From: Halobacteriales archaeon QH_7_66_36
GTDB taxonomy: Archaea > Halobacteriota > Halobacteria > Halobacteriales > Haloarculaceae
NCBI GenBank assembly: GCA_003021175.1
Contig: PXQV01000010.1
Location: forward strand, 124,001-188,000
Direction: 5' to 3'
Length of the DNA stretch: 64,000 bases
The notes below the pieces were generated by a model. That model worked only from the letters and a program-made list of their open reading frames with translations, had not been told where the DNA came from and did not search any database. Made by a program: the position numbers and the translations under genes. Numbering within the stretch: the stretch's first letter is position 1; every line of letters starts with the position of its first letter. Below, piece by piece: positions 3,661-59,518 of the stretch.

Positions 3661-4194
3661 ATGAGTGAGAAGCCTGCCTCGATGTACCGGGACATCGACA
3701 AGCCGTCGTACACCCGGCGGGAGTACATCACGGGCATTCCCGGCTCGAAGATCGCCCAGTACAAGATGGGTCAGACGGAGAAGGACGGAGACGAGTACGC
3801 GGTCCAGATCAGCCTCGTCGTCGAGGAGACGGTCCAGATCCGTCACGGCTCGCTGGAGTCCTCGCGTCTGTCCGCGAACCGCTACCTGCTGAAGGAGCTC
3901 GGCGAGGACGGCGACTACAAGATGATCCTCCGGAAGTTCCCCCATCAGGTGCTCCGCGAGAACAAGCAGGCGACCGGCGCGGGCGCGGACCGTGTCTCCG
4001 ACGGGATGCGCGCCGCCTTCGGGAAGATCGTCGGCACCGCCGCACGCGTCCACGCCGGCGAACGGCTGTTCACCGCGTGGTGTCATCCCGAGGACGCCGA
4101 CCTCGTGAAGGAGGCCTTCCGCCGCGCGTACAACAAGGTGACTCCGCCGTGCCGCGTCAAGGTCGAACGCGGCGAGGAACTGCTCGTCTCCTGA
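3661..4194 (+). CDS. rpl10e: 50S ribosomal protein L16/L10e
   Basis: 177-residue archaeal L10e (universal uL16) of the large ribosomal subunit, near the peptidyl-transferase and A-site tRNA region. Recognisable segments are [23 protein letters not shown] at the N-terminus (family hallmark), the central [12 protein letters not shown], and [15 protein letters not shown] with the conserved Gly/Arg loop. Length is normal. ATG start with a weak AT-rich box (TTCAAAT) about 27 bases upstream. It stands alone here, divergent from the GST-like gene. Confidence 0.97.
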
Positions 4195-4293
4195 TTCCGG
4201 CGTCCACATCCTGCTGTCCGCTTCGGCTTTGAGCATTTGCTCCATCGGGTAGTGTGTGAATTAAGAGTTTGAGTGGTAGTTCGTTGGGGCTGA

Positions 4294-4555
4294 AACTACC
4301 TCGAAAGCCCCGACTCGCTGGCGTCGGGGGCCTCGCTGCGCGCGCTCGCTTCGCTCGCGTGCTTACGTCGGCCACCTTCCGCCAGCGAGTCGCCCCTTTC
4401 AGTCCGCCCGACGGCCGTTTGCCGGCCAGCCGATACGGGCGGGACTGAAAGGGGCCGTCGTCTCAACGAACCCGGACGAAGCAAGCACCGCAACGAAGTG
4501 AGGAGCGCAGCGAGTCCTGGGAGTCGAGACGACGGGGGCTTTCGAGGTGTCCACA
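4294..4555. repeat. Head-to-head pair of structured intergenic elements (type A)
   Basis: Two copies of a dispersed element face away from each other. The left copy, read on the minus strand, runs from GGGACTGAAAGGGGC (about 4393-4407) to GGGGCTTTCGAGGTAG (about 4298-4313). The right copy runs on the plus strand from 4441 to about 4547. In the left copy CGACTCGCTGGCG (4311-4323) pairs perfectly with 4380-4392. In the right copy CCGTCGTCTC pairs perfectly with GAGACGACGG just before the 3' box. In both, GAAAG and CTTTC close the stem. The outer ends, GAAACTACC and GGTGTCCACAGTGGTTTC, are imperfect inverted repeats. It fills most of the gene-free stretch 4195-4628; no coding capacity is seen. 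Confidence 0.7.
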
Positions 4556-4628: not shown

Positions 4629-5498
4629 GTGAGTGGCGACCTCCGACTCGCGGTGGCGACGGACGCCGAGACGCTCGCCCGCATCCGTGACCCGCTCGCG
4701 GAACGCGGCATTCGGGCCGAACACGTCCGGACGGGCGAGCGAACGCTCCCGCTGGACGGCGACCTCGGCGACTTCGACGCCGGCTTCGTCTATCCGTCGC
4801 GGATCATGGAGGGCGGGGTCGCGGACGCGCTGCTCGACGTGCCGTGGGTGAACGGCCGCGAGGCGGTGCTTCGCTCCCGGAACAAGGCGGGCGCGCTGGC
4901 GCGGCTCTCGCGGGCCGGCGTGCCGACGCCTGACTCAACGCTCGTCTCGAATCCGGTCGACGAGTCGGCGCTCCGCGAGGCGTGGGAGCGGTTCGACTCG
5001 CCCGCAGTCGTGAAGCCGAACTCCACGACCCGGGGGACGGGCATCGCAAAGGTGTCCGATCTGGACTCGTTTCTGGGCGTCACCGACTATCTCGAACTCG
5101 TCCACGACTACCGGGCGGCGGGCGACCGCTCGTATCTCGTACAGGAGTTCCTCCCCGACGCCCGCGACTACCGGGTGATGACCGTTGACGGCGAGTACGT
5201 CGGCGCGGTCGAGCGTCGCCTTCCAGACGAGGCGCTCGCGGCGGGCCAGTGGAAACACAACGTCCACCGCGGCGCGGAGGCGACGGCCGTCGACCTCGAC
5301 TCCGACCTCCGCGCGCTGGCGGAGGAAGCGGCCGCCGTCCTCGACATCGACTGGCTGGGGGTCGACATCCTCGCCACGGACGACCGGGCGGTGGTCAACG
5401 AGACGAACGCCCGCCCGACGGTCGACGCGGCGACGAAGTACGAATCCGACTTCTACGACAGACTGGCGGGGCTCATTCGGTCGCGAGCCGAGAGGTAG
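4629..5498 (+). CDS. RimK-type ATP-grasp family protein
   Basis: 289 residues with a GTG start. The ATP-grasp fold is shown by PAVVKPNSTTRGTGIAK (nucleotide-binding lysine and glycine loop, about 127-143), YLVQEFLPDARDYRVMTVDG, the WKHNVHRGA segment and DWLGVDILATDD...VVNETNARPT with metal-binding Glu/Asn near the C-terminus. Such enzymes ligate an amine to a carboxylate through an acyl phosphate, and RimK relatives add amino acids to proteins or small molecules. The substrate cannot be told from the sequence or neighbours. Confidence 0.85.
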   Translation: MSGDLRLAVATDAETLARIRDPLAERGIRAEHVRTGERTLPLDGDLGDFDAGFVYPSRIMEGGVADALLDVPWVNGREAVLRSRNKAGALARLSRAGVPTPDSTLVSNPVDESALREAWERFDSPAVVKPNSTTRGTGIAKVSDLDSFLGVTDYLELVHDYRAAGDRSYLVQEFLPDARDYRVMTVDGEYVGAVERRLPDEALAAGQWKHNVHRGAEATAVDLDSDLRALAEEAAAVLDIDWLGVDILATDDRAVVNETNARPTVDAATKYESDFYDRLAGLIRSRAER

Positions 5499-10237: not shown

Positions 10238-10530
10238 CAACTACCTCGAAAGCCCCCGGCGGCTCGACTCCCGGGCCTCGCTACTTGACCGGTCTAGCAT
10301 CGCGGACGGGACTGAAAGGGGCGACGCGTCATCGGGCGGCTCCGCCGCCCGATTGCCCGAGGGAGCTTCGCTCCCTCGCTGCTGGCGGAAGGCGGCCGAC
10401 GCAAGGACCGCAGGCCGACGGCCGAGGACCGCAGCGAGGTCTGAGCGCGGCGGGGCCGCGCCCACGGTCCGAGGCGACTCCGTCGCCTCCGCTACCCCCG
10501 ACGCCAGCGAGTCGGGGCTTTCGAGGTGCC
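10238..10530 (+). repeat. Structured intergenic element (type A), one full copy with a partial inverted partner
   Basis: The full plus-strand copy runs from GGGACTGAAAGGGGC (about 10308) to GGGGCTTTCGAGGTGCC (about 10514-10530). Its interior has strong palindromes (CGGGCGGCTCCGCCGCCCG, GAGGGAGCTTCGCTCCCTC) and shares CTGGCGGAAGG.GGCCGACG and CCCCGACGCCAGCGAGTCGGGG with the left copy at 4.3 kb. A minus-strand fragment (CTACCTCGAAAGCCCCC at 10241) lies immediately left, so this was probably once a head-to-head pair. It occupies most of the gene-free stretch 10192-10622. Translations of it are low-complexity and not credible. Confidence 0.65.
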
Positions 10531-28865: not shown

Positions 28866-29250
28866 ACGTCGAAGGGTCGTGATCACATAAGGGCAATTCA
28901 GGTGGATGAGCAAGCAACAAGGTGGAGAAAGCCCCCGGTCGCTGCGGTCGCGCGCAGCGTGGAGCGAAGCTCCACGGGCCGTGCGAGCGGCCGTCGGCCG
29001 CAAGCAGACCTCGCTGTGCTCCGCAGCCTCCCTCCGGTCGGCTTCCGGTGTCCTCGCGCGGCACAGCCGCGCGAGCGGGCCGAGGCGACGCAGTCGCCTC
29101 GCGGCTTGCGTCACCGGGCTTCCCGCAGCGACCACCGGGAGAGCGGCGCTCTCCCAAGCAATCGGCGGCGAAGCCGCCGATAACGGCACCTTTCAGTCCC
29201 GCCCAGCACGGGTTTGGCCGAGCGACGACCCGCGTATCTGAACACCGCCC
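28866..29250 (-). repeat. Structured intergenic element (type B), minus orientation
   Basis: Read on the minus strand: the 5' terminal repeat GTGTTCAGATACGCGGGTC (about 29239), then GGCGGGACTGAAAGG (about 29192-29206), TATCGGCGGCTTCGCCGCCGA, a GGGAGAGCGCCGCTCTCCC hairpin, further palindromes, and GGGGGCTTTCTCCACC (about 28921-28936). It ends near GCCCTTATGTGATCAC, a worn version of the other terminal repeat. TCGAAGGGT occurs on both sides (28870 and 29248) and could be a target duplication, though spacing differs. No coding capacity seen. Confidence 0.65.
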
Positions 29251-38505: not shown

Positions 38506-38657
38506 TGTTGTCACCGCGGGCGTCGAGTGGTTCAACACGCCGAGTCACCCCGCGTGTCACATTCCAGCCTGCCGTAGCAGGTGCCCGCCGGTGCCCGCCC
38601 TCCGACGTGCTTGCCACACCTTCCGCGTTCGCCGTAAAAAGAGCGTCGAATCGCCGG

Positions 38658-59238: not shown

Positions 59239-59518
59239 GGCGATGTTCAGATGCGCGGGTCGTCGCTCGGCCGAGCAACCGTGCTGGGCGGGACTGAAAG
59301 GGGCCGTTATCGGCGGCTTCGCCGCCGATTGCTCGGGAGAGCGTCGCTCTCCCGGTGGGCGGTCGATCCGGCCCCCGCGTTCGGAAGACGCTCCGCGTCT
59401 TCCGCAGCCCAGCAGCAATCTGCGATTTCTGCGGGCTGGTCCACGCTGCGCGCGACCGTACCGACCGGGGGCTTTCTACACCCCTTGGCTGGCTAGTCGC
59501 CGAATTCACCCTTATCTG
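59239..59518 (+). repeat. Structured intergenic element (type B), plus orientation, most complete ends
   Basis: Begins GATGTTCAGATGCGCGGGTC and ends CACCCTTATCTGAACACT, an imperfect inverted terminal repeat. Between them are GGCGGGACTGAAAGGGGCC (about 59288), the hairpins CGGCGGCTTCGCCGCCG and GGGAGAGCGTCGCTCTCCC, then CGGAAGACGCTCCGCGTCTTCCG, and the 3' box GGGGGCTTTCTACACC (about 59466-59481). It fills the gap between the AhpD-like gene and the Cys-rich gene. Confidence 0.75.

Follow-up and report, generated by a model that had tools for sequence, protein, structure and literature searches.

Positions 4296-4550 of the window (the whole 64,000-nucleotide stretch of the Halobacteriales archaeon QH_7_66_36 analyzed here) contain two opposite-strand copies of one repeat arranged head to head, which are probably two copies of a haloarchaeal structured RNA module that has been spread by transposons. 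Most copies of this element share a common plan, namely a GAAAG/CTTTC helix, a 3x3 GGG loop, a freely varying and perfect stem, and conserved inner loops. The folded molecule is most likely an RNA read from the box that opens each copy (box A) to the one that closes it (box B), such that the window pair would supply one sense copy on each strand.

The pair lies between two genes, one encoding ribosomal protein L10e (3661-4194; PF00252) and the other an ATP-grasp protein resembling RimK (4629-5498; PF08443). Read from A to B, the R1-modelled left copy spans 4296-4411 on the minus strand (102.7 bits; contig 128296-128411) and the right copy 4435-4550 on the plus strand (122.6 bits; contig 128435-128550), the training rows of the covariance model being in part these two copies themselves. 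The right copy begins with box A (GGGYGGGACTGAAAGGGGC), continues through the variable stem and the inner domain, and terminates at box B (GGGGCTTTC). The 12-mer GACTGAAAGGGG of box A occupies 4393-4404 (minus strand) in the left copy and 4443-4454 (plus strand) in the right one. Helix P1 joins the CTTTC within box B (4303-4307, minus, and 4539-4543, plus) to GAAAG (4396-4400 and 4447-4451, respectively), and is followed by the conserved 3x3 GGG/GGG internal loop, with its halves at 4393-4395 and 4308-4310 (minus) in the left copy and at 4452-4454 and 4536-4538 (plus) in the right. Next comes P2, in which CGCCAGCGAGTCG (4380-4392) pairs with CGACTCGCTGGCG (4311-4323) over 13 bp on the minus strand, and CCGTCGTCTC (4455-4464) with GAGACGACGG (4526-4535) over 10 bp on the plus strand, the first-named arm being the 5' one in each case. 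Further inside the right copy, two conserved inner boxes, GAAGCAAGCACC (4478-4489, plus) and GAGCGCAGCGAG (4503-4514, plus), form the 5' and 3' sides of the loops between P3 and P5. The outer boxes ACCTCGAAAGCCCC and GGGGCTTTCGAGGT are 100% complementary over 14 bp. Both P2 stems are present base for base where an earlier note on this DNA had placed them. The head-to-head arrangement that it described also stands, and among the loci compared it recurs as 15 distinct pairs, the boxes of which are 27-39 nt apart; the separation of the two 12-mers in the window is 38 nt (4405-4442) and not the approximately 33 bases that it gave.

The window pair is best read, on comparison of the sequences, as an insertion, because in one congener (G392, locus L235) the gap between L10e and RimK is only ~110 bp and free of the element, with similar sequence just 5' of the RimK gene; four relatives had an L10e match and only this one has the same right-hand gene. 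A conserved position of the pair among congeners was considered and rejected: loci L233 and L234 have other sequence downstream, and the L10e end is unplaced in L232. The gap after L10e in L233 contains other repeats (GGCTTGAAAGCC-like), which are apparently unrelated to the hairpin-element family. No target duplication was found flanking the window pair, nor in the 11 head-to-head pairs with both ends placed. To its left, GGTAGTGT (4248-4255, plus) might tentatively be a decayed left terminal repeat resembling those of the miniature inverted-repeat elements (MITEs) of this genome.

The evidence for a conserved fold comes from comparison of many copies. Box A was located at 237 distinct places, in the genome under study, in 30 others, in named contigs and, by chance, in four viral sequences; with box B chosen at each as the best-pairing candidate, the complementary bases adjoining the boxes number 8 or more of 12 at 173 places and fewer at 36, and 28 are without box B. 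From these, 91 class-1 cores with at least 9/12 complementary bases and the inner motif were reduced to 75 by removal of near-identicals, and 54 were used as the alignment A1. RNAalifold renders A1 as one long hairpin: P1 (GAAAG/CTTTC) leads through the 3x3 GGG/GGG loop to a P2 of 10-13 bp and on to P3, beyond which lie two loops rich in purines, the short helix P4 and a terminal hairpin. In these 54 cores 92.9% of the cells are paired as against 70.9% in shuffled alignments, the pairing of P1 and P2 stemming in part from selection since rows had to match box A exactly and to have a well-paired P2. However, P3-P5 lay outside the row selection and covary nonetheless, with double change in five of the six pairs of helix 4. 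Across A1, changes on both sides are seen at 22 of 29 pairs; the cells with double change number 319 (shuffled, 104.6 +- 8.9; slid versions, 47-100), and the covariation score is 0.520 as opposed to 0.149 for shuffled alignments and 0.064-0.101 with partners slid. The 19 cores of class 2, which have another inner domain, display double change in 15 of 32 pairs. The inner domain is thus of two kinds or more, and these are interchangeable. P1 itself has changed on both sides in a variant-box copy of the own genome (L222; GGAAG/CTTCC). The unpaired loops are invariant across many genera. This comparison over many copies shows that pairing is maintained by compensatory change, bearing out what the earlier note had suspected from the differing stems. 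Thermodynamic folding of both strands, which it had proposed as a check, also beats shuffled sequences (z of -2.7 and -4.9 for the A-to-B strands and -4.5 and -5.8 for their complements); as inverted repeats fold from either strand, folding energy alone does not pick one.

The strand can instead be distinguished by the mismatches that the stems tolerate. Among P2 stems from 159 copies read from A to B, 1924 of 2045 pairs are Watson-Crick, 59 are G.T and 11 A.C (p=4e-9), and the inner helices of A1 contain 42 G.T against 14 A.C; these p-values are too small because the copies are related, but the direction is alike in the own and the named genomes. The flanks of the own copies present no matching mutational strand bias (C>T 89, G>A 77). 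Either a cruciform in double-stranded DNA or a symmetric copying of arm onto arm would equalize G.T and A.C; hence, folding takes place on the A-to-B strand, be it RNA or single-stranded DNA. G.T tolerance is also possible in single-stranded DNA, from which the same asymmetry could result.

This asymmetry bears directly on whether the hairpin is merely inert palindromic filling of MITEs, the stems of which are kept perfect by replication slippage or template switching that copies one arm onto the other. The great regularity of the stems would be expected from such a process, the terminal repeats of the MITEs suffice to account for mobility in this genome, and there are copies from which the hairpin is absent, with box A joined almost directly to box B (e.g. 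L001, L012, L014, L020 and L047). The existence of the latter implies that copies of the element can endure without the hairpin. That these hairpin-less copies constitute a single transposed subfamily was explored and dropped, as a tree of 47 flanks was ambiguous (three changes, two forced); one of its seven MIN rows, L006, had been mislabelled owing to a wrong end. Arm-copying, however, is strand-symmetric and would not yield 59 G.T against 11 A.C, and inert filling leaves the invariant unpaired loops, the interchangeable inner domains and the fixed promoter-linked copies (see below) unexplained. We therefore regard it as improbable and favor the structured RNA module.

The element is abundant and phylogenetically bounded. 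The exact string GACTGAAAGGGG occurs 71 times in the 2.6-Mb genome (reversed control, 0), and within the window six matches with at most one mismatch compare with 0.18 expected. Across the order, GACTGAAAGGGGC is found in 220 of 392 sampled genomes and 64 of 95 genera, at 0-83 copies each, with the control near zero; outside it, 14 of 311 genomes in a phylum sample of 392 have one or two matches, which is approximately the control level. The carriers among the matches listed include Haloarcula, Haloparvum, Natrinema, Halorussus, Halobaculum and Natronococcus. Copy numbers are sharply unlike even between congeners (71, 7, 2 and 1). Viral spread was rejected as an explanation, since the four matches in viral contigs are chance boxes without stem or box B. 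When 610 neighboring proteins were clustered by sequence, the recurrent neighbors proved to be mostly unrelated housekeeping genes, the exception being a plasmid locus of Haloarcula. In tandem gaps the element shows a weak sense bias relative to its neighbors (56 sense, 38 antisense; p=0.08).

In the genome under study, most copies lie in MITEs. Terminal inverted repeats, GGTAGTGTTCAG...CTGAACACTACC, are present at both ends of 56 of the 70 own copies, and the 8-bp sequences flanking these match at 6 or more of 8 bases in 22 of the 56, against 22 of 1959 cross-pairings. The terminal inverted repeats together with the 8-bp target duplication show that these MITEs were moved by a DDE-type mechanism. 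A+T-rich positions are placed symmetrically, ~20 bp outside both ends of the MITE; the A+T peak upstream of own copies had raised the possibility that the MITE contains a promoter or is directly preceded by one, which was rejected because the peak is mirrored downstream and so points to a target preference. At further places with the terminal repeats, every stretch inspected (11 from nine loci, and L217) again contains the element, its boxes altered or partial. The two boxes and the stem are also kept in other genera, amid different flanks. The 8-bp duplications and the pattern of the terminal repeats suggested a possible IS6 parentage; a profile search for the IS6 transposase (PF13610) found none in the genome and a single match among six congeners. 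No transposase with matching ends was recovered in this search, which covered PF13610.

At the Haloarcula plasmid locus, the recurrent neighbor of the element is a gene for a 383-aa protein with a match in 25 of 32 genomes of the genus. A class-2 element lies upstream of this gene, on the opposite strand, in 22 of the 30 loci examined. In 19 of these 22 orthologous loci a TATA box, (A/G)GTATATAA, is present on the strand of the element, ~230-280 nt upstream of box A; no TATA box stands at this position in L248, and the corresponding sequence is different in L254 and L255. In the 14 of 22 loci aligned, dense conservation extends from just past the TATA box to just past box B and then declines. 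The plasmid relative of the element is thus the 3' part of a conserved unit of ~350 nt behind the TATA box, at a fixed site. In L248 both sides have changed in P1 (GCAAG/CTTGC) and in P2, and L252 is a G.T intermediate, which is vertical evidence for compensatory change at a single locus. The locus resides on plasmids, among them pNG500 (H. marismortui) and pHH126 (H. hispanica; 4228-4829 of L266 in strain N601), with no annotated CDS in the stretch; these plasmids are typed with an MPF_T mating-pair system, and one has a type IV secretion gene nearby. The adjoining gene is annotated as a SOSS complex subunit B family protein, and a Pfam search with the 383-aa protein returned no family. The strand served by this candidate promoter is the one predicted by the G.T count, which supports the assignment of that strand. 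Upstream of other lone copy types, or of long 5' domains in other genera, the search for a TATA box gave no clear peak.

These observations also bear on the fuller version of the shared promoter tentatively raised in the earlier note, namely a bidirectional transcription unit fired from a single promoter between the boxes. The geometry and the constrained spacing of 27-39 nt would be consistent with such a unit, but the spacer at 4405-4442 is GC-rich and without a TATA-like sequence, and the sole promoter seen for a relative is placed ~230-280 nt upstream of box A. We hence consider a shared promoter very improbable.

A further reading, which we hold to be unlikely but somewhat less so than inert filling, is that the hairpin is recognized as single-stranded DNA on one strand by an HUH enzyme (Y1 or relaxase-like), in the manner of REP sequences or the ends of IS200/IS605, with the head-to-head pairs corresponding to BIMEs. 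It would accommodate the conserved 5' foot of the hairpin (GGGTGGGACT) with its constant mismatched loop, the strand asymmetry and the recurring inverted pairs; moreover, the genome has one Y1_Tnp gene, and the fixed locus lies on MPF_T plasmids, with a type IV secretion gene near one of them. Yet HUH transposition does not produce the terminal inverted repeats and 8-bp duplications seen in the own copies, the 3.3-kb locus of the Y1 gene (L229) is without an element box, and no recurrent transposase-like neighbor emerged among the 610 clustered proteins, of which the Haloarcula gene alone was followed up. A DNA hairpin would also not require a TATA box and a conserved leader of ~200 nt. REP sequences and BIMEs, which are associated with the RAYT transposase, likewise combine a hairpin having a conserved foot with head-to-head pairs; the haloarchaeal copies differ from them in having terminal inverted repeats, an 8-bp duplication and a much larger inner structure, and no linked RAYT (Y1) transposase was found for them.

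Returning to the structured RNA module, we posit an architecture in which the short helix P1 is constant, the 3x3 internal loop consists of guanines, P2 is free in sequence but paired, and the inner domain is conserved, with purine-rich loops. Its constant loops might serve as a binding platform for a putative protein, leaving P2 free to drift as long as it pairs. The plasmid unit is likely transcribed and resembles a gene for a longer RNA, with an RNA of ~350 nt predicted to begin ~25 nt past GTATATAA and to end after GGGGCTTTCAAGG. The dispersed copies, for their part, would be transposon-borne versions of the RNA domain, transcribed mainly by read-through. Weighing against this reading are the lack of a TATA peak upstream of the other long copies, the weakness of the sense bias toward neighboring genes, the copies without a hairpin, and the capacity of single-stranded DNA to produce the same G.T asymmetry. 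More tentatively, and with considerable doubt, one might envisage a large multi-domain RNA, encoded by a promoter-driven gene beside that for an RPA/SOSS-B-like ssDNA-binding protein on pNG500-type plasmids, the 3' domain of which is a self-contained module that was captured by transposons in several lineages, reaching dozens of copies per genome with varied 5' and interchangeable inner domains, and possibly acting with the ssDNA-binding protein of the plasmid. Few structured RNAs with firm support are known from archaea. If the proposal holds, the element would be a mobile RNA domain. The element also provides a case in which the transposition-driven spread of a structured nucleic-acid module can be traced across an order. 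The strong covariation, the strand prediction, the candidate promoter and the fixed single-locus form in cultured Haloarcula make it directly testable.

The element seems to be absent from RNA family databases: neither the pair nor 13 further carrier loci scored at or above the gathering cut-off of any Rfam 15 family, and the weak matches were not credible. In open-access text, to which the search was confined, the box strings matched only an irrelevant microRNA paper. The nearest described kinds of repeat, namely BOX, MITE, PATE and SMR elements, can be set apart from it by their descriptions rather than by sequence comparison. First, the BOX elements of Streptococcus pneumoniae (PMC3049150) are similarly interspersed and modular, with a predicted RNA fold and an inner module that is absent or variable, and some are transcribed together with neighboring genes. 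Unlike them, the haloarchaeal boxes occur in 64 of the 95 sampled genera of an archaeal order, and the element has a stem free in sequence yet paired, 8-bp target duplications and a promoter-linked fixed form. Second, prokaryotic MITEs such as Correia and ERIC share with it terminal inverted repeats, target duplication and a non-coding, multicopy and intergenic nature (PMC10969869); unlike in those, the haloarchaeal core covaries strongly across genera amid several unrelated flanks. Third, the MITEs, PATEs and SMRs of Haloquadratum (PMC3119063) are also transposase-free haloarchaeal repeats, though PATEs and SMRs are without target duplications. SMR-type elements nest in others, as do double-hairpin inserts here.

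These inserts form modules of the type GTTCG-hairpin-GTCATC or GTGATGAC-hairpin-GAACCAC, nested in both orientations at several element sites (L092, L145, L163, L189, L212 and own copies), and look like mobile mini-elements in their own right. In the window, further copies at 29187 (minus), 33115 (minus) and 59291-59472 (plus) have a GTTCAGAT-type 5' end and large double-hairpin inserts, CGGCGGC..GCCGCCG and GGGAGAGC..GCTCTCCC. Another copy at 10244-10526 (box A at 10310 and box B at 10513, plus strand), with an orphan inverted box B at 10244, lies upstream of a CPSCSP zinc-finger-like gene, a homolog of which is also near an element in Natronobiforma (L155). In several genera a shared long 5' domain, GCGCGCTGGC..GCGAGGGATGAG..TCGGCTGGGGAGG, is joined to the core (L103, L108, L114, L117, L136, L148 and L209), and this domain is unlike the 5' domain of the Haloarcula plasmid locus. 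Finally, the sole Rfam match in the window is an eL15-Euryarchaeota ribosomal leader at 38524-38581 on the minus strand (RF03144, 36.8 bits).
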